Positions 2,657-18,001 are shown, counted from the stretch's first letter. The stretch: 40,990 nt of DNA from a virus (IMGVR_UViG_3300025009_000218:1-40990); one strand, 5' to 3'. Notes: generated from the sequence alone by a model not told the origin. Numbers and translations are program-made.

Positions 2657-3209
2657 GATAGTCAATCATACGCTCTAGGGTGTCTATATTATCTTTAAGA
2701 TGCCCTAGAGCTATGTTGCAATTGTGACAAAGGAGGCCTCTAACCTTTCCTGTAGTGTGGCAATGGTCAATCCTATACCCCACTTTCGAGTCTGGATAGA
2801 TTAAACTATCTCCACAAACCTTGCAGCACCCTTTTTGTTCGTCAAGCATATTAGATAAATCTTCCATACTAATACCGTATCTACTTTTAATCTGTCCAGC
2901 TCTAGATTTTACAACATTAGTAGGGATAGCTCTCCACTCTTTTTCCCAAGCTTTTACCTTTTCAGGGTTAGATAAACGATACTTTTTACTCGCCTCAGCA
3001 ACCTTCTCTTTATTCAATCTCCTATACTCTTTCTTTCTAGCAGCTACTTCTTCCTTATTGTATTCTCTGTATGATTTCTTACTCTCTAAAATTTTCTCCC
3101 TATTAACCTCTCTATAAACCTTTCTACGTGCAGCTATTTCTTCCTTATGAACCTCATTATAAGTTTTATAATAAGCAGCTGCTTTCTCTTTTTTAGTTTG
3201 GTCATCCAT
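2646..3209 (-). CDS. Endonuclease VII-type HNH homing endonuclease
   Basis: A 187-residue protein. Residues 1-100 are a highly charged helical region with repeated Y[RK]xxNKEK-like units, probably DNA-contacting. The C-terminal domain carries CCKVCG, then RIDHCHTTGKVRGLLCHNCN, the zinc/HNH signature of the recombination endonuclease VII family. It probably acts as a free-standing homing endonuclease. It is the only minus-strand gene in the left 27 kb. AAGGAG precedes its ATG, and an ACTATATAG motif lies about 34 bases upstream. Confidence 0.9.
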   Translation of the reverse strand: MDDQTKKEKAAAYYKTYNEVHKEEIAARRKVYREVNREKILESKKSYREYNKEEVAARKKEYRRLNKEKVAEASKKYRLSNPEKVKAWEKEWRAIPTNVVKSRAGQIKSRYGISMEDLSNMLDEQKGCCKVCGDSLIYPDSKVGYRIDHCHTTGKVRGLLCHNCNIALGHLKDNIDTLERMIDYLKA

Positions 3210-4558: not shown

Positions 4559-5343
4559 GACCCATAAGAATTAACCCCTACGGCCCTTCAGACTCTGTAA
4601 CCTCTCTTATTGCTGCTCTTCGTGAGAGAGGTGCTAACGTAAAAAGGTTGAAGTATGAGGGGAGCACCTATAGGGGTTCTAACAATCACCTCATCCTCAA
4701 CTGGGGTTGCCACTCACGGAGATCTGTTGATACGCAGTTCCACATGATCAATGATCCCTTTGCAGTTCAGATTGCGAGTGACAAGATTAAGACCTTCCAG
4801 AAACTGAAAGAGTCTGGCATGGAAAATAATATTCCAAAGTTTACTACTGATCAAAGGGAGGCCCAAGAGTGGGCAGCTTCAGGCATTACAGTATATTGTC
4901 GGACTCTGATTCGGGCCTCTCAGGGTCGTGGTATCGTTGTAGCTAATACTGTTGATGAGGTGGTAGATGCACCTCTCTACACTGGAAAATGTCCTCGACG
5001 TAGAGAGGTTCGTATTCATGTGTTCAATAGTGAGATTATCTCCTTTGCCCAGAAAAAGAAGATGAGTGAAGAGCGTCTTGCTGAAGATGGAATCACTTAT
5101 AGCAATGATGTGCGATCCCATGGAAACGGGTGGGTTTTTGCCCGTGAAGGAGTCTCTATTCCAGATGAGGAAAAACAAGTTGCTATAGCTGCTGTAGGTG
5201 CTTTAGGTCTTATGTTTGGTGCTGTTGATGCTGCATTAAGCGCTAACTCTGTGAAGATATTCGAGATTAACACAGCTCCTGGACTTGAAGGTGCTACGCT
5301 GGAGGCTTATGTGGAAGCTGTTATTAGGGCAGCTAATGAATAA
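4555..5343 (+). CDS. ATP-grasp carboxylate-amine ligase
   Basis: A 262-residue protein. An N-terminal alpha/beta part (1-75) precedes the ATP-grasp fold. The Gly-rich loop is RASQGRGI at 120-127, a basic strand REVRIHV at 150-156, and the metal/ATP-binding end FEINTAPGLEG at 236-246, preceded by D225. ATP-grasp enzymes activate a carboxylate as acyl phosphate and join it to an amine. The next large genes encode an amidoligase and a class II glutamine amidotransferase, so the three probably modify a peptide, protein or small metabolite together. AAGGAG lies upstream, overlapping the previous gene. The substrate cannot be read from sequence. Confidence 0.85.
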   Translation: MRPIRINPYGPSDSVTSLIAALRERGANVKRLKYEGSTYRGSNNHLILNWGCHSRRSVDTQFHMINDPFAVQIASDKIKTFQKLKESGMENNIPKFTTDQREAQEWAASGITVYCRTLIRASQGRGIVVANTVDEVVDAPLYTGKCPRRREVRIHVFNSEIISFAQKKKMSEERLAEDGITYSNDVRSHGNGWVFAREGVSIPDEEKQVAIAAVGALGLMFGAVDAALSANSVKIFEINTAPGLEGATLEAYVEAVIRAANE

Positions 5344-5552
5344 TGTGGGAGTTCAGTTTCTACAAGTACGGTGTAGGTACTACTGACATTTTTGAAGGGT
5401 GCTTCTGCCTAATAAATACAGAAAATCTTGAAGTTAAGTTTAGAGGTTGGGATCACAGACCGGGAGACGGACTCTGTGAGAATTATACTATCTACCCTAA
5501 GAACGACCTAGAGAGATTCTATACTATCTTGAAGGTGAGGAGGGTGCTATAG
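5343..5552 (+). CDS. LKVRR-tail small protein 1
   Basis: A 69-residue protein starting MWEFSFYKYG and ending FYTILKVRRVL. It starts one base into the ATP-grasp stop codon. The C-terminal tail hL[KR][VI][RK]RxL is shared by about 20 small proteins in this window. Its codons (AAG GTG AGG AGG) also supply the ribosome-binding site of the next gene. A beta-strand at each end is likely. Function unknown. Confidence 0.7.
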   Translation: MWEFSFYKYGVGTTDIFEGCFCLINTENLEVKFRGWDHRPGDGLCENYTIYPKNDLERFYTILKVRRVL

Positions 5553-5734
5553 TGTGGGAGATAGCTATATACAAAAGTTGTGATACCACCTTAGATCTCT
5601 ACATACAAAGCTTCTGTTTTATCGATAGAGATAGTAGAGAGGTGAGATTACTTAATCTGTCCAGTGGTAGGGTACAATCAGAGGGCTATGAACATTATAG
5701 ATTTACAATCTTTAAAATTAGGAGAAAGATATGA
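5552..5734 (+). CDS. LKVRR-tail small protein 2, GTG start
   Basis: A 60-residue protein, MWEIAIYKSC... ending YRFTIFKIRRKI. Its N-terminus closely matches the preceding gene (MWEFSFYK / MWEIAIYK), so the two are tandem paralogs. GTG 5552 overlaps the upstream TAG by one base and uses the GTGAGGAGG of the upstream tail as ribosome-binding site. Confidence 0.65.
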   Translation: MWEIAIYKSCDTTLDLYIQSFCFIDRDSREVRLLNLSSGRVQSEGYEHYRFTIFKIRRKI

Positions 5735-5916
5735 ACTGTAAGTACTGTGAGTACCTCATCTTCTCTGAGAGAATGATGGAGGGAGTGACTAAAGCGGCTG
5801 AGGACTCTGTACATGGGGTTGTTGGAACTTTGTACCTCATGAACGGTGAGGTGGCTAAGATGTTTAAACCTCTTGAAGTAATCACCGATAAGGGGAGATT
5901 GGCTAGGGTAATATAA
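5731..5916 (+). CDS. Small hypothetical protein with CxxC
   Basis: A 61-residue protein beginning MNCKYCEYLIF. It lacks the LKVRR tail (it ends KGRLARVI), so it is probably unrelated to its neighbours although translationally coupled to both by 4- and 1-base overlaps. The CxxC could bind metal. Function unknown. Confidence 0.55.
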   Translation: MNCKYCEYLIFSERMMEGVTKAAEDSVHGVVGTLYLMNGEVAKMFKPLEVITDKGRLARVI

Positions 5917-6131
5917 TGGACTCCCTACAGTACTTTATAGGGAACTCTTGGTTGGAGGAAGATCTAGAAGATTACTACGATGGATCTTGGGTTCCAGGCA
6001 TGAACCACTTATCTAGAGCGGTGATTACCTCTTATCTAGATGACGATGAGGTGTCTTTTGTAGAGAGATCCGGAAGTTGGTATGTAGATTATGATGAGGC
6101 TATAAAACTAACATTAAAAAGGAGAATATAA
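5916..6131 (+). CDS. LKVRR-tail small protein 3 (divergent)
   Basis: A 71-residue acidic protein ending IKLTLKRRI, a shortened version of the family tail. Residues LQYFIGNSW...MNHLSRAVITSYLDDDE align with the next gene's LYFIGNSW...MNYLSRRVCVSHLLDGDDD, so they form a paralogous pair. It starts one base into the upstream stop. Confidence 0.6.
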   Translation: MDSLQYFIGNSWLEEDLEDYYDGSWVPGMNHLSRAVITSYLDDDEVSFVERSGSWYVDYDEAIKLTLKRRI

Positions 6132-6132
6132 T

Positions 6133-6390
6133 GTGCTCTATTTCATAGGAAACTCTTGGAAAGATTCATCTACTCCTAATTCCCCTGAAGGGTGGAGATG
6201 GGTGGAGAATATGAATTATTTATCTAGAAGGGTGTGTGTATCTCATCTATTAGACGGTGATGACGATGATGATGATCCTGGTTTTAGCACAGTATCTTCA
6301 TTAAGATTCTACAGATACTCAGATCACCACAACGATTGGGGAATCCGATTAGATAATGCTGTACCTCTGAGAGTGAAGAGAGTGCTATGA
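6133..6390 (+). CDS. LKVRR-tail small protein 4, GTG start
   Basis: An 85-residue protein ending NAVPLRVKRVL. Start GTG 6133 follows AGGAG of the upstream tail; the ATG two bases earlier stops after five codons. A run of Asp codons (GATGACGATGATGATGAT, near residue 40) forms a small trinucleotide repeat. It is a paralog of the gene at 5916. It overlaps the amidoligase start as ATGA. Confidence 0.6.
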   Translation: MLYFIGNSWKDSSTPNSPEGWRWVENMNYLSRRVCVSHLLDGDDDDDDPGFSTVSSLRFYRYSDHHNDWGIRLDNAVPLRVKRVL

Positions 6391-8330
6391 GTAATAGAAT
6401 ACCAGATTTTGGTGATATACTACTGATTGTTGGTGAATCTGGTAGAGAATACAACTTCCCACCATACCAATTCGATATTGTCAGGAACATAGTTCCGTGT
6501 AGTTGGAACGACGACGGTTGGAGAGATGGTATTGGAGATGAAGATTATAATCTTGAAGATGATGAAGTTATACAATGTTACGGAACTGATGGGTCAGATG
6601 CGCACGTTTATCCCGGAGAATACACTTACTTAACCAAAAAGGAAACTATTACTATGCCTACTCCCTGCCCTTGTTTGAATTGTCATGCTGAAATCACCGA
6701 TCCTAACTTTCGCGTTGTCCTTTATAATGAGGACTATCCTGAGGTAGAGATTGGTCCGTATTGTGAGAGGTGCTATGCACTTCTGAAGGTGTGTTCTGGT
6801 TGTCAGCATGCAGTCCTTGCATCTGAGACTACTCACACTGGAAACGGAGATCACTATTGTCGTAGCTGCATGACTGACTTTGCAGTCTGTGAGGATTGTG
6901 GAACTCAGAAGCCCTCCAATGCTATCAAAGATGTTAATGGAAGGAAGATATGTTCTACCTGCCTTACCAAGAACTATAAGCTGTGTGGTTGTTGCAGCAC
7001 TTATAAGAAGAAAGATGATATCATCTCAGCCAATTCTCTTGAGGGTATGCGCAGAGCTGGTATCTTCAGAAAGTATGGACAGTCTGTATGTAAAGAATGC
7101 TTCGAGGCTAAGAAGAATGCCTTCAAGCTCTATGAGATCGAACAGTGTGAGCATTGTGGTAAGAACTATAGCTACACAGCAGATCAGGGATCTCCGAAGA
7201 AGTACTGTCCTCGTTGTTGGGATTTTTTCGAGACTTGCGCGGTATGTAACACCAAGCACCCACATATTAGGCTCCGAGAATATCTGGATGACTCTGGAAG
7301 CATGGTTAGGAACACTATGTGTGATTCCTGTGCTACAAAGACTCTCTTCACCTGCGATTGCTGCCAGAAGGAGTGTGTCTCGAAGGTTAAGAAGTATGTG
7401 AAAGGAACTATGAGGGTGCATACAGTGTGCTCTCGGTGTGCTTCAGGTAAGGAGTGCTCCAGTTGTTCCACCCTCTCCTCTGGATCAGGAGATATGTGCG
7501 AGATCTGCAAGAAGGTTTACGTCACCAACTCCTGCAGCAGTTGCGGTAGGATTAAGGATGAGAGGCACAACTGTAGGGTGTGTGGTGGTATGGGTATCTA
7601 TAACTATAGTCATAAACCTCGAGTCTTCTTCAACTATAACAAGGAGAAGGAGATCAAGCGTGGTAATATCTTCTTCGGGTTTGAGAATGAATGTACGTTC
7701 TCATCCGATAGTAGTAAGATGAATAAGAGATTGGCTGAGATGTACACTGTATACGACCCTACAGTAGTTGTAGCGAAGAGTGATGGATCTATTAGTGGTA
7801 GTGGATATGAGGTTGTCACTCAACCGATGTCTCTGATGTACTTTCATAAAATGGATCTTGGTCCTCTTCTTCCTGAAGGTATTAGGAAGAGTGATAGTTG
7901 TGGCCTTCATATCCATATAGGTCGCGACTCTTTCATCTCTGAGGTTCATCTGTATAAGGTTATTAATTTTCTGCACTCCAACCCTACCTTCACCACGTAC
8001 ATAGCTGGTCGTAGCTTCAATGGTTACTGTGCTAAGCTGAAGAGTAAACCCTCTAAGCACCTGAGGGATAGTAAGTCTGGTAATACTGAGCGTCGTGCCA
8101 TGGTCAACCTGACCAACAGGACCACAGTAGAGTTCAGGTTGTTTGCTGGCTGTACTAAGGAGTTCGAGCTGCGTAGTAAGGTAGAGTTCCTTCATGCCTT
8201 GATCACCTTCCAGAAGGAAGTACCTATCCATCTCTCTAAGGATCTCGCAGCCTTCAAGAATTTTATTGAGAGCAATAGCAAGATCTATCCTAATGGGAGC
8301 TCATTCGTCCAGAAGTATAATGGACGATAA
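6387..8330 (+). CDS. Multi-zinc-ribbon amidoligase (COOH-NH2 ligase family)
   Basis: A 647-residue protein in three parts. Residues 1-89 are acidic and unlike the rest. Residues 90-410 hold a long series of CxxC pairs, probably eight or more treble-clef/zinc-ribbon modules for binding a partner. The C-terminal domain from about 428 has FFGFENECTF, SDGSISGSGYEVV, GLHIHIG (about 505) and TTVEFRLFAG (about 577), matching the Amidoligase_2 family of the glutamine-synthetase/GCS fold, which makes amide bonds from a carboxylate and an amine using ATP. Met 90 (MPTPCPCLNC) also has a purine-rich upstream stretch, so the first 89 residues may be a fused former small gene. Coupled to the upstream tail gene. 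Confidence 0.8.
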   Translation: MSNRIPDFGDILLIVGESGREYNFPPYQFDIVRNIVPCSWNDDGWRDGIGDEDYNLEDDEVIQCYGTDGSDAHVYPGEYTYLTKKETITMPTPCPCLNCHAEITDPNFRVVLYNEDYPEVEIGPYCERCYALLKVCSGCQHAVLASETTHTGNGDHYCRSCMTDFAVCEDCGTQKPSNAIKDVNGRKICSTCLTKNYKLCGCCSTYKKKDDIISANSLEGMRRAGIFRKYGQSVCKECFEAKKNAFKLYEIEQCEHCGKNYSYTADQGSPKKYCPRCWDFFETCAVCNTKHPHIRLREYLDDSGSMVRNTMCDSCATKTLFTCDCCQKECVSKVKKYVKGTMRVHTVCSRCASGKECSSCSTLSSGSGDMCEICKKVYVTNSCSSCGRIKDERHNCRVCGGMGIYNYSHKPRVFFNYNKEKEIKRGNIFFGFENECTFSSDSSKMNKRLAEMYTVYDPTVVVAKSDGSISGSGYEVVTQPMSLMYFHKMDLGPLLPEGIRKSDSCGLHIHIGRDSFISEVHLYKVINFLHSNPTFTTYIAGRSFNGYCAKLKSKPSKHLRDSKSGNTERRAMVNLTNRTTVEFRLFAGCTKEFELRSKVEFLHALITFQKEVPIHLSKDLAAFKNFIESNSKIYPNGSSFVQKYNGR

Positions 8331-8402
8331 GCTGTTATAACTGTATGGAAGATATTAAACATCATACACACTTTGCTTTTAGAGACAGGAGTGGAGAAGA
8401 GG

Positions 8403-8493
8403 ATGAGTATATATATGGTTCATCCTCTGCTGCTCAAGGTGTGTACCGGAAGTTGGTTACTATAAAGTGCTAAAGATAAAGAGGAGAATATAA
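8403..8493 (+). pseudogene. Frame-broken LKVRR-tail gene
   Basis: One frame ends with a clear family tail, GYYKVLKIKRRI-stop at 8493, directly before the amidotransferase. That frame has no start codon after its upstream stop. An ATG at 8403 with AGAGG upstream is in another frame (MSIYM), separated by a short TA repeat at 8408-8415 where a one-base change would join them. A third frame, 8345-8473 (42 codons from ATG), also covers this stretch and may be the expressed one. The tail codons still provide AGAGGAG for the downstream gene. Confidence 0.4.
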
Positions 8494-8494
8494 T

Positions 8495-9430
8495 ATGTGT
8501 ATTGCGATTTTCAAGCCAGCTGGTGAGCTCCTTAGTGAAGTTCTGTTGAAGAATTGCTTTAATAATAACCCGGATGGGGCTGGCTTTGCGTATATTAATA
8601 CTGATCATCTGGGTGTCAAAAGGATTAAGATGTACAAGAACATGAGCTTCGAGCCGTTCTATAAGCAGTACCTTAGGGCTACTCGTATAGCTAATGACTC
8701 TCCATTCTTGATCCACTTCAGAATCAAGACTCATGGTGAGAAGGATATAGCGAACTGTCATCCCTTTATGATTGATAATGATACTGTGTTTATTCATAAT
8801 GGAATCATCAGTGGCGTATCCCGACATGCTACTATGTCAGATACTCGAATGTTCAAGAGAGAGATCCTTCGGGAACTTCCTGAAGGGTGGATGTACAATA
8901 GTGCAATTGCTACTCTTATTGAAGACTTCATAGGTGCATCTAAGCTGGCAGTACTGAACATCGAGGGTGACTGCACTATATACAATAAGAAGAAGGGTCA
9001 TTGGTTTGGTAAGTGTTGGATGAGTAATGATTCCTATAAGGAGAGGAAGATTTATACTCAAACGTACTATAGTGCTAAGACATACAACCTCCCAGTAACT
9101 AGGCCGAACACCGAAGCATGGAGTATCAATGCCTACACAAGGGATATGTGTGAGTACTGTAATGAGATTCATCAGATCAAAGATATGAACGCCTATCAGG
9201 ATAGTGTTGCTGATGATATCATGATCATTTGTGATGAGTGTAAGAAGTCTCTTGAGAGAGCTGGAGCTATCCATAACAGGATGAAGACAACTATCTCAGC
9301 TTACCTCACCCAAGCTAATATCAAAGCTAATAGGGAGAAAGCAGCAGCGTCTCGTAAGGCAGCCGAAGATGCACTCAAAACTCAGGCTGATGACGAGGCC
9401 TGGAGAGACTACGGACATATGATGCAGTAG
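8495..9430 (+). CDS. Class II glutamine amidotransferase
   Basis: A 311-residue protein. Cys2 directly after the initiator Met is the expected N-terminal nucleophile. NNPDGAGF (24-31), HFRIKTHG (74-81), CHPF (88-91) and FIHNGII (99-105) are the class II amidotransferase signatures that bind glutamine and release ammonia. The C-terminal region has CEYC/CDEC, a probable zinc site near 218-247, then a basic helix. With the ATP-grasp and amidoligase genes upstream, it probably feeds ammonia into an amide-forming step or transfers a glutamine-derived group. AAGAGGAG lies upstream, inside the broken tail gene. Confidence 0.85.
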   Translation: MCIAIFKPAGELLSEVLLKNCFNNNPDGAGFAYINTDHLGVKRIKMYKNMSFEPFYKQYLRATRIANDSPFLIHFRIKTHGEKDIANCHPFMIDNDTVFIHNGIISGVSRHATMSDTRMFKREILRELPEGWMYNSAIATLIEDFIGASKLAVLNIEGDCTIYNKKKGHWFGKCWMSNDSYKERKIYTQTYYSAKTYNLPVTRPNTEAWSINAYTRDMCEYCNEIHQIKDMNAYQDSVADDIMIICDECKKSLERAGAIHNRMKTTISAYLTQANIKANREKAAASRKAAEDALKTQADDEAWRDYGHMMQ

Positions 9431-9460
9431 TTCTTAAGAACCTATAGTGGTGGAGATGAT

Positions 9461-9610
9461 ATGTACTTTGTTTTATTGTATGATATAGATGATCCTGAAT
9501 TTTGGATACCGTTCTATGGAAGAAACATAGATCATTATAAACATACTACGACTATAAGAGATGGTGATAGATGCTACTATAGGTTCTTAAAAATTAAGAG
9601 GAAGCTATGA
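9461..9610 (+). CDS. LKVRR-tail small protein 5
   Basis: A 49-residue protein, MYFVLLYDIDDPEFW at the start and YYRFLKIKRKL at the end. GGAG precedes the ATG by 6-8 bases. Its N-terminus matches the next gene (YDIDDPEFW / YDVDNPTFW), a clear tandem duplication. It overlaps the next start as ATGA. Confidence 0.65.
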   Translation: MYFVLLYDIDDPEFWIPFYGRNIDHYKHTTTIRDGDRCYYRFLKIKRKL

Positions 9611-9744
9611 GAATCTATTGCTTCTTATATGATGTAGATAACCCTACCTTCTGGCATTGGTCAATGTGCAGATGCATGAGGGCATACCAGGTGAGTACAG
9701 ACATTACAAACTGTACACGCTTAAGAGTGAGGAGGAAGTTGTGA
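9607..9744 (+). CDS. LKVRR-tail small protein 6
   Basis: A 45-residue protein, MRIYCFLYDVDNPTFW... ending TRLRVRRKL. A longer frame from 9657 overlaps it in another register, but this frame carries the family start and tail and is coupled by ATGA, so it is preferred. Its AGGAGG serves the next GTG. Confidence 0.65.
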   Translation: MRIYCFLYDVDNPTFWHWSMCRCMRAYQVSTDITNCTRLRVRRKL

Positions 9745-9920
9745 GATTCTTCTATAGGTACAGAGCAGGTGCTGATCTAATGGATTTCTTGTACTGGAAG
9801 ATTGGTATGATCTATAGGCAGAAGGATCCGAGAAGTGATATTGCATATTCCTTCTGTGATGGAAGACACTCTAGCCTGTACTTGAACCTAAAGGAATTGA
9901 AGATTAGGAGAAAATATTGA
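9741..9920 (+). CDS. LKVRR-tail small protein 7, GTG start
   Basis: A 59-residue protein, MRFFYRYRAG... ending LKELKIRRKY. GTG 9741 overlaps the upstream stop (GTGA) and follows AGGAGG by six bases. The same frame is open further upstream, but no start there has a ribosome-binding site. Confidence 0.65.
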   Translation: MRFFYRYRAGADLMDFLYWKIGMIYRQKDPRSDIAYSFCDGRHSSLYLNLKELKIRRKY

Positions 9921-10063
9921 GTGGCCTATTCATCATCCTTTGGTGTGCATCAGAACCTTCAAGGTGGTGGAGTTACAATTCCAGAAGGGTGATGTTTGAG
10001 GATGAAGATATCTCAGATGATACTGAGATGTATATAATCCTAAAGGTTAAGAAAAGGCTATGA
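9917..10063 (+). CDS. LKVRR-tail small protein 8, TTG start
   Basis: A 48-residue protein read from TTG 9917, which overlaps the upstream stop (TTGA). AGGAG lies eight bases before. The product has a Trp-rich middle (SRWWSYNSRR) and ends MYIILKVKKRL. The unusual start makes it easy to miss. Confidence 0.6.
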   Translation: MSGLFIILWCASEPSRWWSYNSRRVMFEDEDISDDTEMYIILKVKKRL

Positions 10064-10196
10064 GTAACTTCTGTATACTATGGGCTAAGGATATAGCTGA
10101 CGGATACTGGCCACCCTCTTTGAGTAGAAGGTTGAGGTGCTATTCGGCTAAGGGTGTAGGGCATATATTGCACTGAAGATTAAGAGGCATCTATGA
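10060..10196 (+). pseudogene. LKVRR-tail small gene with a one-base frame break
   Basis: ATG 10060 (coupled by ATGA) opens MSNFCILWAKD..., but this frame stops at 10176 after ...GHILH. Starting at 10170 in another frame the expected tail ALKIKRHL-stop follows and ends at 10196, overlapping the next ATG. One missing base near 10168-10170 would explain it. Either the tail has been lost, or this is a sequencing error or frameshift site. Confidence 0.5.
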
Positions 10197-10321
10197 AAAG
10201 GTTTTGTATCTTATCCAACCACTTAAATGATTGGTGGTATCCTGGAAATCATAGGAGGATTATTTGTGGAATAAATGGTAGTCCTAATATTATACTATTG
10301 AAGGTGAAAAGGAGAATGTGA
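10193..10321 (+). CDS. LKVRR-tail small protein 9
   Basis: A 42-residue protein, MKRFCILSNHLNDWWYPGN... ending NIILLKVKRRM. The start resembles the broken copy before it (NFCILWAKD / RFCILSNH). It overlaps GTG 10318 as ATGTGA, and its AAGGAG would serve that start. Confidence 0.65.
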   Translation: MKRFCILSNHLNDWWYPGNHRRIICGINGSPNIILLKVKRRM

Positions 10322-10362
10322 GCAATCGCCCATGTCCTGAATGTAGGGGGTTTTATGTGTAA
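10318..10362 (+). pseudogene. Relic start of the primase gene
   Basis: GTG 10318 has an excellent AAGGAG and is coupled to the upstream gene, yet the frame ends after 14 codons (VSNRPCPECRGFYV). It resembles the live primase start at 11071 (MKNRQCKVCKS): AATCGCC.ATGT is shared at nucleotide level and both open a CxxC zinc motif. It looks like the original primase start, cut off when the HNH gene arrived. Confidence 0.5.
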
Positions 10363-10382
10363 CTGATCCCCATAATTATCAC

Positions 10383-10406
10383 TTCAGTAACGTGATTACT
10401 ATATAG
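10383..10406 (+). promoter_or_regulatory. Candidate phage promoter TTCAG-N10-ACTATATAG
   Basis: It fits the shared bipartite motif with exactly ten bases between the halves. It lies about 42 bases upstream of the HNH start at 10449, in the only noncoding gap of this part of the operon, so it probably drives the HNH gene and the primase behind it. Confidence 0.55.
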
Positions 10407-10448
10407 ACCTTAAAGGGTTTATATTTTAATTCAACTGGAGGGATGATT

Positions 10449-11090
10449 ATGAAAGGTGTTCATTGGAATAAGGCAAGGAAAAGATGGAAAGCATCTATAA
10501 GATCTAGTCTTGGTTGTGTAAACCTAGGATCTTATAAGGATAAGGAAGAGGCTGAGTTTGCTAGAAGAGCTGGAGAGGAGTGTGTTGATCTATGCAAGAC
10601 AGCTACAACTGGGATATGTTGTATATGCGGAGAGGTTATTATACAAGCTAAGAGGGGGCCTAAAAGAACTAAGTTTTGTTCTAAGAGGTGCCATGCGCTT
10701 TGGAAGAGATCAGATCCGGGTTATGCAGAATGGAAAAGAGAGTACGATGCTATCTATAGAGAGGAGAATGCAGATAGAATAATAAGAAATAGAGAAGTTT
10801 ATAAGGATACCGAAGGTTATAACGAAACTCTCTTCAGACGAAGACTTAAGATCTTCAATATAACTGAGCAGTGGTTAGAGGGTATGATAATCTCTCAAGT
10901 TGGGAAATGTGCTATATGTGGTATAGATTTTATTGAGATGTTCTCTATAGATCATGACCATGATACTGGAAAAGCCCGAGGGTTGTTATGTAATTCTTGT
11001 AACTCTGGTATAGGGTTCTTAAAAGACTCTAAAGATACTTGCCTTAAAGCTGCTAAGTATTTAGAATCATATGAAGAATCGCCAATGTAA
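10449..11090 (+). CDS. AP2-domain endonuclease VII-type HNH homing endonuclease
   Basis: A 213-residue protein. Residues 1-40 (KGVHWNKARKRWKASI...LGSYKDKEEAEFAR) are an AP2-like DNA-binding domain. A CCICG...FCSKRC zinc site follows near 54-82, and the C-terminal nuclease has CAICG...SIDHDHDTGKARGLLCNSCN. ATG 10449 is preferred because GGAGGG lies six bases before it; the ATG at 10443 abuts that site. Its end overlaps the primase start by 20 bases. It is probably a mobile gene that invaded the primase start. Confidence 0.9.
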   Translation: MKGVHWNKARKRWKASIRSSLGCVNLGSYKDKEEAEFARRAGEECVDLCKTATTGICCICGEVIIQAKRGPKRTKFCSKRCHALWKRSDPGYAEWKREYDAIYREENADRIIRNREVYKDTEGYNETLFRRRLKIFNITEQWLEGMIISQVGKCAICGIDFIEMFSIDHDHDTGKARGLLCNSCNSGIGFLKDSKDTCLKAAKYLESYEESPM

Positions 11091-12000
11091 GGTGTGCAAG
11101 TCGCTCGGGCATGATTCAAACTCTGATCATCTATGGTTGATGAAGGACGGTGTAACACGAGCTTGCCTAAAACCTTATCATCCGCCATACTACGAAAGAG
11201 ACGGAGAGGTGTGTGATGCTTCTAAAAAAGGAGGAGAGATGGAGTTAGATGAAATAAAGAGACTTCCTTATTACGGTAATCCCGATAGACTTATAAGTGC
11301 TGAGACACACAAGCACTTCAAGATCCGAACAGAGCTCTCAGAGGCTACAGGTATTCCAGTAGCTATCTATTACCCTGAGACACATCTCGGTAAGTTTATA
11401 GGATATAAGAAGAGATTACTTCCTAAGAAGTTCTCAAGTATTGGAGATCAGAAGGGAAAGATACCTGACCTATCAGGACTCCACTGCTGTCCTATGTCAG
11501 GCAGAAAGTTGCTTATCACTGGTGGTGAAGAGGATATGTGTGCTGCCTATGAGATGCTGAAGACTAGGTATCCTGAGGTAGAACCTGCAGTAGTGTCTCT
11601 ACCAAGGGGTGAAGAGTCCTCATTGGCTACGGTGACTGAGAGTCTTGAGTTCTTCAAGGGCTTTGAAGAGATCATCATAGCTACTGATATGGATGCTGCT
11701 GGCAGGGCAGCTGTGGCTAAGTATGCACCTGTCATAGGTGAGAGGGCTAGGGTCTTGGTCATCTCAGAGAAAGATGCCAGTGATATGCTGGTAAAAGGAA
11801 AGCAGAAGGAGTTCATCAATGCTTACTTCAACGCTAGAGAATATCGCCCTAGTAATATTATATCTGTTGGTGATATCTTGGCCGATACTATTAAACCTGT
11901 ACCGTGGGGCTTATCTTACCCCTTCGAGAGGCTTACGAAGCTTACGTATGGCCTTAAGGAGGAAGAGGGAGAGATAATTTCGATAGGGGCTGGACCGGGT
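11071..12000 (+). CDS. Primase-helicase, exon 1 (zinc-binding primase, TOPRIM, start of Walker A)
   Basis: 310 codons of a T7 gp4-like bifunctional primase-helicase. CKVC...C near residues 6-32 is the zinc-binding primase domain. The TOPRIM fold shows ITGGEEDMCAA near 149 and IATDMDAAGRAA near 205, with metal-binding acidic residues. The exon ends in IGAGPG inside the helicase P-loop; the intron interrupts there, and a read-through would stop two codons later. Joined to 12833-13525 the product is about 540 residues, close to T7 gp4. It makes RNA primers and unwinds DNA at the fork. No clear ribosome-binding site precedes 11071, which lies within the HNH gene. Confidence 0.9.
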
Positions 12001-12100
12001 AAATAATTGCCCCTTTGAGTAGAGATGCTCATCGAATAACTATGTGAATTCGGGGGAAGCCTAAGTCTATTAAGATATGGTAATCCCGAGCTAAGCTATT

Positions 12101-12124
12101 ATCAGAGTGTTGCATACTATATAG
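12101..12124 (+). promoter_or_regulatory. Candidate phage promoter ATCAG-N10-ACTATATAG inside the intron
   Basis: A perfect copy of the bipartite motif, 44 bases before the intron-encoded HNH start. The 19 bases from 12116 match the copy at 15432 at 18 positions, including a downstream TTATAGTTG. ACTATA/TATAGT can form a small hairpin. It would let the endonuclease be transcribed separately from the host gene. Confidence 0.6.
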
Positions 12125-12167
12125 ATTATAGTTGAATGTAATATACAAATAATCTATGGAGGATGCG

Positions 12168-12689
12168 ATGGAAGTTTGGAAACATGTTGAAGGTTTTGGT
12201 GGCCAGTATCAAGTGTCAGATTGTGGAAGAGTTATGTCAACCCACGGTAAAGTTCCTAGAATCTTAAAACCTGGAAGGCATAGACAGGGTTATCTTCTTG
12301 TTGTTCTTCAGTATGAGAGGTTTAGGAAGACTTACCAAGTTCACAGATTAGTTATGGAAACTTTTAATCCAGATCATAAAGATGGAGAAGAGGTTAATCA
12401 TATAGACGGTATAAAGAGTAACAATTGTGTCTCTAATCTGGAGTGGGTATCTCCTTCCGAGAATGTATGCCATTCATTTGCATCTGGAAAAAGGCGCATT
12501 CGCCTGGGAGAGAAGATTCATAACTCTATCCTGTCAGATGAAGATGTTGATACTATTTGTTATATGATATCTAATAGGGTTAGTAGAGATGATATCCTTA
12601 GCTCTTTTGATAACTTATCATTCAGGCTATACTACTCTATAAGAAGTCGCCAAAACTGGAAGCATGTTAGTTGTAGATACTCTTGGTAG
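12168..12689 (+). CDS. Intron-encoded NUMOD4/HNH homing endonuclease
   Basis: A 173-residue protein. EVWKHVEGFGGQYQVSDCGRVMS at the N-terminus is a NUMOD4 DNA-binding motif. VHRLVMETF, NHIDGIKSNN and NLEWVSPSENV form the HNH_3-type nuclease. The C-terminal DDILSSF...IRSRQNWKHV looks like a helix-turn-helix repeat for target binding. ATG 12168 is used because GGAGG lies just upstream; an in-frame ATG at 12156 precedes that site. It should cut intron-less copies of the helicase gene and promote intron homing. Confidence 0.92.
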   Translation: MEVWKHVEGFGGQYQVSDCGRVMSTHGKVPRILKPGRHRQGYLLVVLQYERFRKTYQVHRLVMETFNPDHKDGEEVNHIDGIKSNNCVSNLEWVSPSENVCHSFASGKRRIRLGEKIHNSILSDEDVDTICYMISNRVSRDDILSSFDNLSFRLYYSIRSRQNWKHVSCRYSW

Positions 12690-12832
12690 TAGAAAGTGTA
12701 ACGACTATCCCGAGAGGGAGTAGGACTCAAGAGGGTCCGAAGCGCATAGCATCTGAAAAGATGATGATATAGTCTGGCCTCATGGGAAACCTTGAGAGAG
12801 GTACTGGAATCGAGCACCTCGTAACACAAGCG

Positions 12833-13525
12833 ACAGGTAAAAGTACACTAGTAAGGCAGATACAACAACACTTAATGTTTGTACACAACAGGCAGATAGC
12901 TGTATTTGATATAGAGGAGAAGGCAAAGGGCTCGTTAAAGAAGATTATAGGTAGCATAATGAACAAGCCTATTCATAAACCTGATTGTGATTATGATGTA
13001 GAGGAGGCGAGGAGAATAGGTGCAACTCTAGAGGGGAAGGTTCATTTTTATGATGGTCTCACAGAGGATTGGGAAGAGGTCAAGGATAATATACGATACT
13101 TTGCAAGCAAAGGTATTAGGGTATTCTTTATTGACCCACTATCTGCATTGGTGGAACATTTATCTGCATCCGAAGCTAATCAGGCTTTGGGTCAAGTTAT
13201 GAGAGATATGAGAAGGTTTAGAACAGAACAGGGGCTGACGTTCTTTAGTGTTAACCATTTGAACAATCCTCCAAGTGGTAAGGATCATGGCGCTGGTGGT
13301 GAAGTATATGGCTCACAGTTCTCGGGAAGTAGGGCACAATGGAAGTACTCTACTGCGCTATGGGGTCTCTCAAGGGACCAGTTAGCTGACACATTGGAAG
13401 AGAGGAACAAGTGTAAATTATCTATCATAAAGGATAGACTTGGTGGTAACACAGGACACATACCTCTCAGGTACAATAAAGAAACTGGAGTACTAGAGGA
13501 GGAGTTCTGCGACGATGAGTTTTAA
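12833..13525 (+). CDS. Primase-helicase, exon 2 (helicase domain)
   Basis: 231 codons continuing exon 1. TGKSTLVRQIQQHL completes Walker A, VFFIDPLS is Walker B, VNHL is the sensor segment, and GSRAQWKYS plus IIKDRLGGNTG match helicase motifs of the T7 gp4/DnaB family. The acidic C-terminal end (EEEFCDDEF) resembles the T7 gp4 tail that contacts DNA polymerase, which is inferred. The end overlaps the next small gene by 11 bases. An ATG at 12782 opens the same frame inside the intron but is not the natural start. Confidence 0.9.
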   Translation, partial: TGKSTLVRQIQQHLMFVHNRQIAVFDIEEKAKGSLKKIIGSIMNKPIHKPDCDYDVEEARRIGATLEGKVHFYDGLTEDWEEVKDNIRYFASKGIRVFFIDPLSALVEHLSASEANQALGQVMRDMRRFRTEQGLTFFSVNHLNNPPSGKDHGAGGEVYGSQFSGSRAQWKYSTALWGLSRDQLADTLEERNKCKLSIIKDRLGGNTGHIPLRYNKETGVLEEEFCDDEF

Positions 13526-13745
13526 TTTCTATCTATGTAAGCATCTAGATTATGGAACAGCTACACCTGAACAATGGACTGGTATGTTCTATAGGGAAGA
13601 GGAGATAGATCTAGAGGACTATGAAGAAGATGATGAACTTCCAGAATTCTACGGGTTATCCTTTGCTCAATGGTTTGGCGTGATATCTGGAGGATTCATA
13701 CCAGTAGATAGACTCATTCCTCTAAAGGTCAGGAGGAGGCTGTGA
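13515..13745 (+). CDS. LKVRR-tail small protein 10
   Basis: A 76-residue acidic protein, MSFNFYLCKH... ending DRLIPLKVRRRL. It starts within the last codons of the helicase. The middle is very acidic (EEEIDLEDYEEDDE) with FYGLSFAQWFGV following. Its AGGAGG serves the next GTG. Confidence 0.65.
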   Translation: MSFNFYLCKHLDYGTATPEQWTGMFYREEEIDLEDYEEDDELPEFYGLSFAQWFGVISGGFIPVDRLIPLKVRRRL

Positions 13746-13945
13746 GATTCTGGGTTGTGTATAATTCATTTAGGGAAGACCCAGACTGGACCTCTAGAAA
13801 TCGTAGATCATTTGCTAGAGAGGATACTAATGCTGATTATCTCAGAGCCATAGAGATGGAGGGCGCTCCTCATGAGATTCGTTGGAGAGTGAGTAGTCCT
13901 CCCTATGAGGTGATGAAGGAGCTACAAATAAGACGGAGGTATTGA
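13742..13945 (+). CDS. LKVRR-tail small protein 11, GTG start
   Basis: A 67-residue protein, MRFWVVYNSFREDPDW... ending MKELQIRRRY, a variant tail with Gln in place of Lys, like the ELKIRRKY of the gene at 9741. GTG overlaps the upstream stop (GTGA). Confidence 0.65.
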   Translation: MRFWVVYNSFREDPDWTSRNRRSFAREDTNADYLRAIEMEGAPHEIRWRVSSPPYEVMKELQIRRRY

Positions 13946-14091
13946 TGAATCATGTGTGGTTTACTATAGCTGTTAGAGATTCTGATGGTTATGGATGGGG
14001 AGATATGTCTGTGAGAAGTTTCTATATATGGAGACAATTTAAAAAGCCGAGAGACTATTATATCAACCTAAAGGTTAAGAGAAAGTTATAG
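13945..14091 (+). CDS. LKVRR-tail small protein 12
   Basis: A 48-residue protein, MNHVWFTIAVRDSDGYGWGD... ending YYINLKVKRKL. It starts on the last base of the previous stop (TGATG), with CGGAGG about six bases before. Confidence 0.65.
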   Translation: MNHVWFTIAVRDSDGYGWGDMSVRSFYIWRQFKKPRDYYINLKVKRKL

Positions 14092-14228
14092 TGGTCTTCG
14101 TGATTCTACGTGGGAACTGTTATTGGAGTGTTGGTTATAGTAGAAGATTAATTACTATGGGTTGTCCTGTTTGTTACCTAACATTTGAGGAGGGATACAC
14201 AGTCCTAAAGGTGAGGAGAGTTGTCTAG
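14091..14228 (+). CDS. LKVRR-tail small protein 13, GTG start
   Basis: A 45-residue protein, MVFVILRGNCYWSVGY... ending YTVLKVRRVV. GTG begins on the last base of the previous TAG. Its tail codons give GTGAGGAG as ribosome-binding site for the TTG start of the polymerase fragment it overlaps by 8 bases. Confidence 0.6.
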   Translation: MVFVILRGNCYWSVGYSRRLITMGCPVCYLTFEEGYTVLKVRRVV

Positions 14229-14958
14229 ATACGTTGTAGATATTGAGGGAGATGGATTTCTCTATGAGATAACTAAGATCCATTGTATTGTAGCTAAAGA
14301 TCTCAAGACCAAAGAGGTCTTCAAGTTTAGACCACACCAAATAGAGGAGGGCCTTCAGCTTCTCAGTAGTGCTGACCAGTTGGTCGGTCACAACATCTGT
14401 GGATTTGATATACCTGCTATCAAGAAGTTATATCCAACATTCACACACAAGAAGCTTAAGGACACTCTCTGTATGTCCAAGCTATTTAACCCCGAACGAT
14501 TCGGGGGCCATTCTCTTGAGTCATACGGAGAGCAGTTCAAAAGAAGTAAACCAGTGCATGAGGATTGGTCAGTGTTCTCTGAGGATATGTTACATAGGTG
14601 CTCAGAGGATGTTGAGATAAACGAGATGGTGTATGAGTACCTAGTAGAAAGGTATTGCCAGAGTTGGAACTGGATTACATCTCTTAACATAGAGCAAGAC
14701 TTCGCAATGTATCGAGCAGCTCAAGAACTTGAAGGTGTAGATATAGATGTTGAGTTGGCTAAGGATCTATTGGTACGATTAGATGAAGAAATTGCTCAGC
14801 TAGATACACTCTTGTATGATAAGAGTCCTATGAGGATAAAGGGTGTAGGTAATATTGAGAAAGGGACCATGCCTTACAAGAAGGATGGTACATATAATGA
14901 AGCCACAAAGAAGTGGATAAACCAAGAGGAAACTATTGAGATACTTACTGATACTTGA
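14221..14958 (+). CDS. DNA polymerase A family, 3'-5' exonuclease fragment
   Basis: A 245-residue N-terminal part of a T7 gp5-like polymerase. Exo I is YVVDIEGDGF (3-12), Exo II LVGHNICGFDIPA, Exo III CSEDVEINEMVYEYL. It ends shortly after the residues that in T7 lead into the polymerase domain; the rest is encoded at 16050-17135. TTG 14221 is used because AGGAG from the upstream tail gene lies close and the DIEGDG motif follows directly. The last 23 bases overlap the next small gene, so the original 3' part was probably displaced by the small-gene cluster. It probably works as a two-piece enzyme. Confidence 0.88.
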   Translation: MSRYVVDIEGDGFLYEITKIHCIVAKDLKTKEVFKFRPHQIEEGLQLLSSADQLVGHNICGFDIPAIKKLYPTFTHKKLKDTLCMSKLFNPERFGGHSLESYGEQFKRSKPVHEDWSVFSEDMLHRCSEDVEINEMVYEYLVERYCQSWNWITSLNIEQDFAMYRAAQELEGVDIDVELAKDLLVRLDEEIAQLDTLLYDKSPMRIKGVGNIEKGTMPYKKDGTYNEATKKWINQEETIEILTDT

Positions 14959-15124
14959 GTATAATCAAACAACCCATGAACTATCTCCTGGGTGGAACGA
15001 GTGGATGTATAGTTTCTGTAGGGATTTTATTAAGTTCCCAGAAGATCAGAGTAGTGTACACTATAAGAGTTGGATCATAGCCCCTAATCATGGAGTCTTT
15101 TTAAAGGTTAAGAGGGTGCTATGA
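14936..15124 (+). CDS. LKVRR-tail small protein 14, TTG start
   Basis: A 62-residue protein, MRYLLILEYNQ... ending HGVFLKVKRVL. TTG 14936 follows AAGAGG by about 7 bases and lies inside the exonuclease fragment. It is the first of three small genes dividing the polymerase. Confidence 0.6.
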   Translation: MRYLLILEYNQTTHELSPGWNEWMYSFCRDFIKFPEDQSSVHYKSWIIAPNHGVFLKVKRVL

Positions 15125-15258
15125 GAGTCTTCTGTATAGAGGGGTGGAAAAATTGTAGTCAGTTGTGCAGATACAATAGAAACATTGTAGTTCTATCAGA
15201 ACACTACGGACCTCCACCAACAACCTTTATAGTGCTAAAGGTGAGGAGAACACTATGA
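15121..15258 (+). CDS. LKVRR-tail small protein 15
   Basis: A 45-residue protein, MRVFCIEGWKNCSQLCRYN... ending TFIVLKVRRTL. ATG overlaps the upstream stop (ATGA). The tail is nearly identical to that of the next gene. Confidence 0.65.
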   Translation: MRVFCIEGWKNCSQLCRYNRNIVVLSEHYGPPPTTFIVLKVRRTL

Positions 15259-15386
15259 AGTTTTACATAAGACATGGGTGGCATGGTTGTGGGACTACTC
15301 ATAATAGAGCCATCCTTATTAATTGTAGTGTAGCTGCACAGTTCCCCGGACAGAATACTCTACTTAAAGTGAGGAGAACCTTATAG
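15255..15386 (+). CDS. LKVRR-tail small protein 16
   Basis: A 43-residue protein, MKFYIRHGWHGCGTTHN... ending NTLLKVRRTL. ATG overlaps the upstream stop. It is directly followed by the relic start of the second polymerase gene. Confidence 0.65.
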   Translation: MKFYIRHGWHGCGTTHNRAILINCSVAAQFPGQNTLLKVRRTL

Positions 15387-15389
15387 GAC

Positions 15390-15440
15390 ATGAATATTCG
15401 TGGACCATACTGTAAGATCAGGTTCCTATTAACTATATAG
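15390..15440 (+). pseudogene. Relic start of the polymerase-domain gene
   Basis: ATG 15390 encodes MNIRGPYCKI, then RFLLTI and a stop. The first ten residues are identical to those of the live gene at 16050, but six of the nine codons after ATG differ synonymously (Ile3, Arg4, Gly5, Pro6, Tyr7, Ile10). AGGAG of the upstream tail lies 13 bases before. The match fades where the ATCAG promoter motif starts (15417), suggesting the left border of the HNH cassette. Confidence 0.7.
15417..15440 (+). promoter_or_regulatory. Candidate phage promoter ATCAG-N10-ACTATATAG
   Basis: A perfect motif copy with ten-base spacing, 49 bases before the HNH start. AACTATA and TATAGTT around it can form a 7-bp hairpin. 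The region 15441-15488 is otherwise noncoding and ends in AGGAGGG. Confidence 0.6.
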
Positions 15441-15488
15441 GTTATAGTTGTAATAAAACATTACATACTTAACCTTTAGGAGGGACCT

Positions 15489-16049
15489 ATGAAGATTTGT
15501 AAAAAATGTGGATCAGAATATCCAGCAACATCAGAGTACTTTTATAAAGTCCGTACTAGTAAGAGTGGGAAAGATGTTCTGAGATGTATATGCAAATCTT
15601 GTGAATCTATGAGGGTGAAGGCTTATAGGGATGCTAACAAGGGTAAGGTTTTAGAAAAGCAAAAAGAGTATAGGGAGAGTAATAAGGATAAGTCTAAGGA
15701 GTATCATAAACTTTATTATCAATCTAATAAAGAGAAGCTGAGCGAAGCAAATGCAAGATATCAGAAGGATAACCCAGATAGGTCGAGATTTTACCAATTA
15801 AAGTATAAGTATAAAGTATCTGAAGATTCTCTAATGGATATGATGAATATTCAGAAAGGTGCTTGTGCTATTTGTGGATGTGATCTAGTTACTCCAGACT
15901 CTAAAAGAAGTTATTCTGTTGATCACAACCATCTAACTGGTAATATAAGAGGGTTGTTATGTAATAGCTGCAACGTACTAGTAGGTCATGCTAATGATGA
16001 TGTTTCTATTTTATCATCTGCAATTTCATATTTAAAAGGAGAATTATAA
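15489..16049 (+). CDS. Endonuclease VII-type HNH homing endonuclease
   Basis: A 186-residue protein. CKKCGSEYP...CKSC at the N-terminus forms a zinc ribbon. Residues 45-105 are a charged helical stretch with repeated KEYRESNKDK-like units, as in the minus-strand HNH at 2646. The C-terminus has CAICGCDL and SVDHNHLTGNIRGLLCNSCN. AGGAGGG precedes the ATG. Its stop is directly followed by the polymerase ATG, and its own 3' end contains the AAAAGGAG used by that gene. Confidence 0.9.
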   Translation: MKICKKCGSEYPATSEYFYKVRTSKSGKDVLRCICKSCESMRVKAYRDANKGKVLEKQKEYRESNKDKSKEYHKLYYQSNKEKLSEANARYQKDNPDRSRFYQLKYKYKVSEDSLMDMMNIQKGACAICGCDLVTPDSKRSYSVDHNHLTGNIRGLLCNSCNVLVGHANDDVSILSSAISYLKGEL

Positions 16050-17135
16050 ATGAATATAAGAGGTCCGTATTGTAAGATAAAATACATGGACCTGAATTTG
16101 AATAGCCACGAACAAGTGAAATCCTACCTATTATCAGTAGGGTGGATCCCTACTCAGTGGAATATAAATAAGAAGACTAAAGAGATAACATCCCCGAAGC
16201 TCACTGAAGATTCGTTCAGCTCTATCAAAGGTGAGCTAGGTCAGTTAGTTGCTCGAAGGAATGTCCTTGTACATAGAAGGAGAACCATCGAGAACCTAAA
16301 GGATCCTGAGAATAAAGGTATACTCTCTAAGGTAAGAGATGATGGACGTGTAGCTGCTGAAGGGATGCCATGTAATACTCCAACAGGTAGGACAACCCAC
16401 GCTGGTGCGATTTGCAACGTACCGAAAGCTGATCCTAAAGTTATCTATGGCAAGGAGATGAGATCACTCTTTAGGGTGTGGCCACCATACATAATGATAG
16501 GTGCTGATCTTGCTCAGATAGAGGCGAGAGTCACAGCACATTGGGCATCTCTGTTTGATGGTGGAGAATATTGGAGGGTGATAAGTTCTGTTCCAGATCT
16601 CCATCAATACAATGCCGACCTCATCCAAAGTACTAGAAACATTGCGAAATCTTTTCAATATGCAATCTATTTTGGAGCTAGAGCACCTAAGCTTGCTAGT
16701 ATTCTTGGATGCACAATAGAAGAAGCTGAAGTATATATTGAAGCTTTTTGGTCTGGTAATCTCGGAGTGAAGATGCTTGTAGACTATCTAACTAAGTTTT
16801 ATAAAAAGAACAAGTACATTGTAGGTCTTGATGGAAGGAAGATGCAGATTAGGCAGGAGTATAAGTTGCTAAACTCTGCCATCCAAGGGACTGCTGCTCT
16901 CATCTTTAAGATGTGGGGTATTAATGTTAATAAGATGCTTGAAGGTACTGGCTTATACTGTAGACAAATGATCTGCTATCATGATGAATATGCTTACAGG
17001 TGCCTGCCAGAACATGTGGAGGAAGCATCGAGAATCATTAAGCTTGGGGCCAATATGGTACAAGGTCAGTTGAACTTGATCACCCCTATAGATGCTGATG
17101 TGAAAGTAGGAATGACTTGGGCGGAGGTACATTGA
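16050..17135 (+). CDS. DNA polymerase A family, polymerase domain fragment
   Basis: A 361-residue T7 gp5-like polymerase domain. Motif A is MIGADLAQIEARV, motif B RNIAKSFQYAIYFGARAPKL, motif C YHDEYAYRC; GLDGRKMQIRQEYKLLNSAIQGTAA also matches T7. In motif B the position matching T7 Tyr526 is Tyr, while that matching Tyr530 is Phe. The start MNIRGPYCKIKYMDLNLN aligns with the T7 segment before GWVPTKY, so the two fragments together cover a whole, somewhat short, polymerase. AAAAGGAG lies 10 bases before ATG. It replicates the phage genome with the exonuclease fragment and helicase. Confidence 0.9.
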   Translation: MNIRGPYCKIKYMDLNLNSHEQVKSYLLSVGWIPTQWNINKKTKEITSPKLTEDSFSSIKGELGQLVARRNVLVHRRRTIENLKDPENKGILSKVRDDGRVAAEGMPCNTPTGRTTHAGAICNVPKADPKVIYGKEMRSLFRVWPPYIMIGADLAQIEARVTAHWASLFDGGEYWRVISSVPDLHQYNADLIQSTRNIAKSFQYAIYFGARAPKLASILGCTIEEAEVYIEAFWSGNLGVKMLVDYLTKFYKKNKYIVGLDGRKMQIRQEYKLLNSAIQGTAALIFKMWGINVNKMLEGTGLYCRQMICYHDEYAYRCLPEHVEEASRIIKLGANMVQGQLNLITPIDADVKVGMTWAEVH

Positions 17136-17296
17136 TGAACTTATTCTTGTTAGAGACTGAAGCAAATAGATATAGGTCTAGGAATATGTTCCTATATAGG
17201 TCTCGTTATAGTGATACTGCAACTACTCATTATATTAAATCTCCTGAGGGCAGGGAGTACTATACTATCTTAAAGATTCGGAGGAAGATCAGGTGA
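17135..17296 (+). CDS. LKVRR-tail small protein 17
   Basis: A 53-residue protein, MNLFLLETEANRYRSRN... ending YYTILKIRRKIR, one residue longer than the usual tail. It starts on the last base of the polymerase stop (TGATG) with CGGAGG upstream. A 12-codon frame (17296-17334, MRYYIINRALVI) follows and may be a truncated family start. Confidence 0.65.
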   Translation: MNLFLLETEANRYRSRNMFLYRSRYSDTATTHYIKSPEGREYYTILKIRRKIR

Positions 17297-17330
17297 TGAG
17301 ATACTATATAATAAATAGAGCCTTAGTGAT

Positions 17331-17477
17331 ATGAGATTCTATTATATCTTATATGTTGGGGGACGAGGTTATGGCAACCTGCACTTCTGTCATCAACCAT
17401 TAGATAATTACTTGTTCGACTTTGTGACAGGATCTTCTGAATATGTAGTGCTAAAGATAAGGAGAACAATATCTTAA
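17331..17477 (+). CDS. LKVRR-tail small protein 18
   Basis: A 48-residue protein, MRFYYILYVGGRGYGN... ending EYVVLKIRRTIS. It is the last family member seen. No strong ribosome-binding site is visible directly upstream; translation may reinitiate from the 12-codon frame whose stop it overlaps. Confidence 0.6.
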   Translation: MRFYYILYVGGRGYGNLHFCHQPLDNYLFDFVTGSSEYVVLKIRRTIS

Positions 17478-17497
17478 CTGATACTGAGCGTAAGCAA

Positions 17498-18001
17498 TTG
17501 TGTGAAGACTTCTTCGGAATGGTTGAGGTCGTAGTAGATGAGTTCCTATCTAGAGAGCGCAACAGGAGGTGGCAAGGGCACCGAGAAGATCTGATGGGGA
17601 TAGGTATGATAGCCTTGAGGAAGTCTTCATTGAAGTACGATCCTGCTAGGGGCTTTCAGTTTAATACTTATGCATCTAATAGTATCCGCTATGAGATGAT
17701 AGCTCACATCAAGAAGCTGCAGCGCAGAGAAGAGATCGAGGTACCTATAGATAGTCTTGTAGATACTGATGACGAACCAAGAACAGAACATAACTATGAG
17801 GAGAATGATGATTACGATGGTATCATAGAGGGTCTAGCACCTAAAGATAAACTGGATAGAATTATATACTATGGTTTGATTATCCATAGTGATCCTAAGG
17901 CTGAGGTGGCCAAGGCTGCTAAGGTTACTATTAGGAAAGCTGGTTATATGAAGAAGCGTATCATCAAAGAAATTCAATTAAAGATGGGAGTTACAATATG
18001 A
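17498..18001 (+). CDS. RNA polymerase sigma factor-like protein
   Basis: A 167-residue protein. HREDLMGIGMIALRKSSLKYDPARGFQFNTYASNSIRYEMIAHIKK (about 28-73) is a sigma-70 region 2 pattern, with the FNTYAS...R core that binds RNA polymerase and the -10 DNA. An acidic linker and a basic C-terminal helix pair (AAKVTIRKAGYMKKRI) in the place of region 4 follow. It could redirect host polymerase to phage promoters such as the ACTATATAG sites. The start is uncertain: TTG 17498 is used, while AAGGAG at about 17459 would suit a start slightly earlier that lacks a standard codon. Confidence 0.75.
   Translation: MCEDFFGMVEVVVDEFLSRERNRRWQGHREDLMGIGMIALRKSSLKYDPARGFQFNTYASNSIRYEMIAHIKKLQRREEIEVPIDSLVDTDDEPRTEHNYEENDDYDGIIEGLAPKDKLDRIIYYGLIIHSDPKAEVAKAAKVTIRKAGYMKKRIIKEIQLKMGVTI

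Follow-up and report, generated by a model that had tools for sequence, protein, structure and literature searches.

Arrays of tiny genes lie between the large genes of a phage fragment, and they probably represent fast-turning-over arrays in which a common C-terminal tail serves as the last strand of a small protein, as ribosome-binding site for the gene that follows and as a recombination joint. The fragment, a virus record of 40,990 bases, is referred to as the window. It was compared with related loci (L plus a number), foremost L002 and L004, two IMG/VR contigs with the same region.

Tiny genes between the large genes

Twenty copies of the tail motif hxL[K.][VI][KR]R.L were located by a mechanical frame search at 5.3-17.5 kb of the window, 18 on intact ORFs of 42-85 codons and two on frameshifted frames (Table 1); the same search of the minus strand gave one weak match only. 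The frames with the stops 8491 and 10194 are broken upstream by a frameshift and have retained tail and Shine-Dalgarno sequence (SD); the former is intact in L002 and L004 (55 aa). Most neighbouring genes overlap by 1 or 4 bases (ATGA, GTGA, TAGTG), up to six tiny genes stand in tandem, and the geometry of translational coupling is present, namely a stop/start overlap with an SD inside the upstream gene. An earlier note on this DNA had described about 20 tiny genes with overlaps of 1-4 bases and a common tail that is also the following gene's ribosome-binding site, and these observations agree with it, the SD being located within the tail codons. Its claim of a tail at every boundary between large genes held for the six boundaries between large non-HNH genes, each with at least one tail, but not for the boundaries arising from HNH insertions, and a small gene within the array (5731-5916) lacks the tail. 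The sequences point to a coherent family of tiny, apparently translated genes between large replication genes.

The large genes are, in order of their starts, a RimK-like ATP-grasp gene (4555), an amidoligase-like gene (6387) and a class II glutamine amidotransferase (GATase)-like gene (8495), the latter two with Pfam matches just under the curated cut-offs, then the primase/helicase (11071 and 12782, with an HNH gene between), the exonuclease half of the DNA polymerase (14221), the other polymerase half (16050) and a sigma-70 region 2 gene (17498). Two minor features were observed at the end of the array. A 12-codon ORF (MRYYIINRALVI, 17294-17334) has a start like that of a tiny gene and looks like the remnant of a deleted one. 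At its putative start the sigma-like gene shows no ATG (17470-17500, ATCTTAACTGATACTGAGCG), and L005 has an ATG there (ATGACAGATCAAGAACG at 15406).

Table 1. Tiny genes and DNA polymerase halves of the window; tail stop gives the position of the stop belonging to each tail.
Feature	Length (aa)	Tail	Position	Strand	Tail stop	Remark
Tiny gene	69	ILKVRRVL	5343-5552	+	5550	
Tiny gene	60	IFKIRRKI	5552-5734	+	5732	
Small gene	61		5731-5916	+		within array, without tail; syntenic in L005
Tiny gene	71	KLTLKRRI	5916-6131	+	6129	
Tiny gene	85	PLRVKRVL	6133-6390	+	6388	end carries SD of 647-aa amidoligase-like gene (6387)
Tiny gene, frameshifted		VLKIKRRI	8345-8493	+	8491	tail and SD of GATase-like gene (8495) retained
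Tiny gene	49	FLKIKRKL	9461-9610	+	9608	
Tiny gene	45	RLRVRRKL	9607-9744	+	9742	
Tiny gene	59	ELKIRRKY	9741-9920	+	9918	
Tiny gene	48	ILKVKKRL	9917-10063	+	10061	
Tiny gene, frameshifted		ALKIKRHL	10060-10196	+	10194	tail in another frame; ribosome-binding half matches the same joint in L002
Tiny gene	42	LLKVKRRM	10193-10321	+	10319	SD of primase start (10318)
Tiny gene	76	PLKVRRRL	13515-13745	+	13743	joint is a hybrid: upstream half matches its orthologue, downstream half matches L002 4163-4345
Tiny gene	67	ELQIRRRY	13742-13945	+	13943	
Tiny gene	48	NLKVKRKL	13945-14091	+	14089	
Tiny gene	45	VLKVRRVV	14091-14228	+	14226	SD of polymerase exonuclease half (14221)
DNA polymerase, exonuclease half	245		14221-14958	+		end overlaps first tiny gene in the split
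Tiny gene in split polymerase	62	FLKVKRVL	14936-15124	+	15122	
Tiny gene in split polymerase	45	VLKVRRTL	15121-15258	+	15256	
Tiny gene in split polymerase	43	LLKVRRTL	15255-15386	+	15384	SD just before polymerase-half start near 15390
DNA polymerase, palm half	361		16050-17135	+		restarted after HNH insertion
Tiny gene	53	ILKIRRKIR	17135-17296	+	17294	
Tiny gene	48	VLKIRRTIS	17331-17477	+	17475	last before sigma-70 region 2 gene

The tiny ORFs look like real genes, judged by the selection on their bodies and by the resemblance of the bodies once the tail is removed. Over 23 orthologue pairs pN/pS was 0.26 for the bodies, 0.29 for the LKV codons and 0.21 for the RR codons; for the last two tail codons it was near 1. 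Stripped of Met and tail, 26 of 57 bodies scored above 95 % of their own shuffles against a leave-one-out profile, with about three expected. These rates of synonymous and non-synonymous change in the tail, and an alignment with a profile of all members, had been proposed as checks in the earlier note. Forty members could be aligned; they have in common an N-terminal strand, as the note had described, an invariant Arg in mid-protein (typically [SN]-R-[SR]-[IML]) and the tail. Searched against whole contigs, the family profile was specific to array regions (on the contigs holding L005 and L011 and in the window itself). The note had not recognised the family, and neither did Pfam, PHROGs or the PDB sequences provide a consistent match, the best being isolated matches of 1-2 of the 40 members with E values of 0.001-1. 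There was no match among 50,697 phage records, neither the array DNA nor the one tiny protein queried matched deposited phages, a search for literature on tiny-gene arrays with a shared tail found none, and no relative of the helicase was found in genome contigs. A DNA-pattern scan of viral contigs returned L002, L004 and three matches in large genes (L030-L032); as further arrays the three were rejected, being chance matches inside large genes.

A reading as pure leader cistrons, natural bicistronic couplers whose peptide is irrelevant and for which passing ribosomes and an SD suffice, is very unlikely: although the large genes after the arrays use tail SDs, and tail and SD have survived in the two frameshifted genes, up to six of these cistrons follow each other, and the low pN/pS of the bodies, the conserved motifs and one Arg invariant in 40 sequences argue for the proteins themselves. 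These small proteins are perhaps host-takeover proteins, a putative role. The first AlphaFold model (49 aa) had a pLDDT of 66.8 and a pTM of 0.34, too uncertain for a fold search. A second structure model, of the 76-aa member (pLDDT 73.5, pTM 0.56), predicted four strands, the last of them a beta strand formed by the tail. Its best matches (Foldseek/VIA) were SH3-like barrels at an E value of 0.94 and a Z of 4.1, that is, of no significance. Strand order and length in these barrels are as in the 76-aa member, and its C-terminus G-G-F-I-P...L-x-V resembles the end of an SH3 barrel; the likeness to a small SH3-like barrel fold is suggestive only.

The tail and the ribosome-binding site

In the genomes compared, an overlapping SD does not by itself give rise to the tail. 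None of 14 large early genes and none of three late genes ended in it despite the same overlap and SD, one of the late genes having just 86 aa; it occurred in 49 of 70 small genes, and most of the other 21 were outside arrays. With fixed SD codons and the window's own amino-acid usage, chance would produce the pattern L-[KR]-[VI]-..-[LIVMY] at a rate of about 3e-4 per gene. Compared with residue-shuffled tails, the within-genome similarity of tails had a z of 9.7 in the window, 21.8 in L002 and 15.3 in L004. The codons of Leu and Val/Ile precede the SD core and are variable in their third positions; the third-position entropies are conditional, as the motif itself had selected the tails, and the shuffle test is free of the motif. 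In L011, Leu, Ile or Ser often takes the place of the Lys that separates Leu from Val/Ile, and these two are unchanged. Because of this position upstream of the core and the exchanges of Lys, the first tail residues look like a conserved strand. It is unlikely that the tail is a by-product, in which an SD at fixed spacing forces R/K codons and everything else comes from chance or recent common descent. Such an origin would suit the RR codons, which are the SD core AGGAGG, the terminal codons with their pN/pS near 1, and the other lineages, where register and residues shift together; the 17 large or late genes without the tail, the free third positions of Leu and Val/Ile and the substitutions in L011 speak against it.

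Relatives had tiny genes with other uniform tails at the same boundaries: hxLKRKE in L037, LKEK/LKVKE in L007, which is on the same contig as L036, and hxLEEY in L038. The SD register is GAG GAG in L038 versus AGG AGG in the window. The motif L.[VI][KR]R was present in the window, L002, L004, L005 and L011, LKRK in L037 and LEEY in L038, and the counts of these motifs, picked after inspection, were hardly mixed across lineages. A shuffle test of tail uniformity gave z values of about 4-22 in array genomes and below 2 in 33 other loci. L051 (z 3.9) was rejected as a further array, its small genes being unrelated paralogues. Since the SD is read in different registers, a hydrophobic-x-Leu and the SD are all that the lineages have in common, and the basic charge of the tail is lineage-specific among the loci compared. 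The earlier note had considered the tail as kept at the protein level. By the refuting condition that the note itself had set, this stands for the hydrophobic-x-Leu, which relatives have kept, but not for the basic KVRR part, which more distant ones have not kept; the constraint on LKV (0.29) and RR (0.21) applies to near relatives, whereas basic residues are no universal feature. Also quite improbable is a tail selected as a functional peptide common to all the small proteins, a signal for docking, targeting, stability or nucleic-acid binding in the manner of a C-terminal address tag. The uniformity per genome over otherwise divergent proteins and the hydrophobic-basic tail of the window and its nearest relatives would fit a tag, but at the same loci relatives have another charge (LKRKE, LKEK, LEEY), and the basic half goes with the downstream gene, not with the protein that it terminates.

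A possibly similar arrangement in another family was seen in L013 (11600-12156), where a tandem pair of paralogues, each about 92 aa long (MNFKVGDVVRV... and MTLQIGDEVEV...), both end near QLKRGIL/QVKRGVL just before the next start.

Gain, loss and swapping of genes at the tail

The alignment of the window, L002 and L004 shows the tail as the seam of gain, loss and swapping of tiny genes. The three differ in the presence of about eight tiny genes, always as whole units. At these junctions the sequence is that of the upstream gene as far as the L-K-V codons and that of the downstream gene beyond them. In a small sample of seven pairs per class, not all independent, identity was 0.90-0.95 through L and K and then 0.38-0.71 (R, R, x, L) where the same upstream gene was followed by a different downstream gene, and climbed at this point from about 0.4 to 0.67-0.86 where the same downstream gene was preceded by a different upstream gene. 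This comparison was anchored on the Leu codon; with the next start as anchor, the differing overlap types blurred the picture. The gene at 13515-13745 ends with LIPLKV/RRRL, the first half as in LIPLKV/KRVL of L004, the second as in IKPMKV/RRRL of the gene before the same neighbour in L002 and L004. The last tail codons travel with the downstream gene, which accounts for their pN/pS of about 1. The breakpoints in the tail and this behaviour of its last codons, like the three tiny genes within the split polymerase, go beyond the earlier note. RNA folding revealed nothing special at the joints: SD accessibility was 0.48 versus 0.41 at random positions (standard deviation 0.19), and the folding energy of -26.3 kcal/mol did not differ from the -26.1 kcal/mol at random positions.

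In the proposed mechanism, tandem arrays of proteins of 42-85 residues would stand in front of replication and cell-modification genes. The small protein's final strand, hydrophobic-x-Leu-x-[VI], would be encoded by the last codons of each tiny gene, and these codons would also carry the SD and, by an ATGA, GTGA or TAGTG overlap, the next start; because both lie in the tail, tiny and large genes may be translated in a chain. With their register fixed, the tails would further act as short direct repeats, at which recombination could remove, add or swap a whole gene, and because the joint has one frame everywhere, the upstream body would stay in frame and the downstream gene would keep its own SD. 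Each tail would have to fit every neighbour, so a homogenisation of tails would follow. From this arrangement we infer translational coupling, short-homology recombination at the tails and a concerted evolution of the joints. Tail uniformity could also stem from a recent expansion of one founder gene per lineage, without recombination at the joint. A more far-reaching form of the mechanism, tentative and with somewhat less than even chances in our view, is a standard coding joint, evolved in a clade of phages, with a register fixed per lineage (RR, EE, KEK, KRKE), by which dozens of tiny genes would be freely interchangeable and whose copies would be kept alike by recombination. If true, any body could be joined to whichever gene follows without loss of frame, stop, SD or start.

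The closest known idea is that of the promoter early stem-loop (PeSL) cassettes of T4-type phages (Arbiol et al. 2010, Comeau et al. 2014, described in PMC4503421), which likewise carry short regulatory repeats between small, variable genes; at these repeats genes are shuffled among related phages. As there, gene content differs between relatives at the repeats, with breakpoints in the tail. However, PeSLs are promoter/terminator stem-loops, whereas the repeat of the window consists of last codons and the next SD in a register fixed per lineage: its joints are coding, overlap the next start and have the folding energy of random positions. Translational coupling is usual for ATGA stop/start overlaps with the SD inside the upstream gene (PMC6728339), and the tiny genes have the same overlap geometry and intragenic SD; the coupled genes of that study are ordinary pairs, unlike the tandem family with its uniform C-terminal sequence. 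Phage genomes are full of tiny function-unassigned genes that come and go, and the mode of turnover is directly readable here, as one joint is protein, ribosome-binding site and recombination repeat together. The arrays offer a testable rule for the modularity of overlapping gene arrays and a case of the SD reading register shaping protein sequence. They are also nature's parallel to engineered bicistronic designs, and their proteins form a new family rich in natural variants.

Split polymerase and inserted endonuclease genes

The polymerase is split at the same protein site in the window, L002, L004, L005, L007 and L011, with three tiny genes between the halves in the window, four in L002 and L004 and others in L005, L007 and L011; in L008 and L012 the gene is whole. 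The split itself is not new because LUZ24-like phages (PMC3890496) and the OM43 phages MEP401/402 (PMC10580990) are known to have family A DNA polymerases that are split, with small ORFs separating the pieces. As in the window, small function-unassigned genes separate exonuclease and polymerase parts in these phages, and their gene content is related (amidoligase, glutamine amidotransferase, primase/helicase). The polymerase of Pseudomonas phage NV1 (Vicosavirus) is broken at another site than that of the window. An intron reading of the tiny genes in the polymerase was rejected, as intron RNA is lacking and the second half is equipped with an SD and a start of its own. At the tiny genes Rfam detected no intron; its sole group I intron match, a weak one (12571-12796, 28.8 bits at a cut-off of 50), adjoins the HNH gene of the helicase.

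HNH/endonuclease VII-like genes interrupt the primase start (10443-11090), the helicase P-loop (12156-12689) and the polymerase (15489-16049). The helicase is cut at the P-loop (12006-12796), a site uninterrupted in L002 (GGAPGGGKSTLVRQ). The polymerase start near 15390 (ATGAATATTCGTGGACCATACTGTAAG) is repeated at 16050 with synonymous changes, thus the HNH insertion appears to have brought its own recoded restart. A further endonuclease VII-like gene lies on the minus strand among the early genes (2646-3209), downstream of a tRNA-Ile(TAT) gene (1578-1652).
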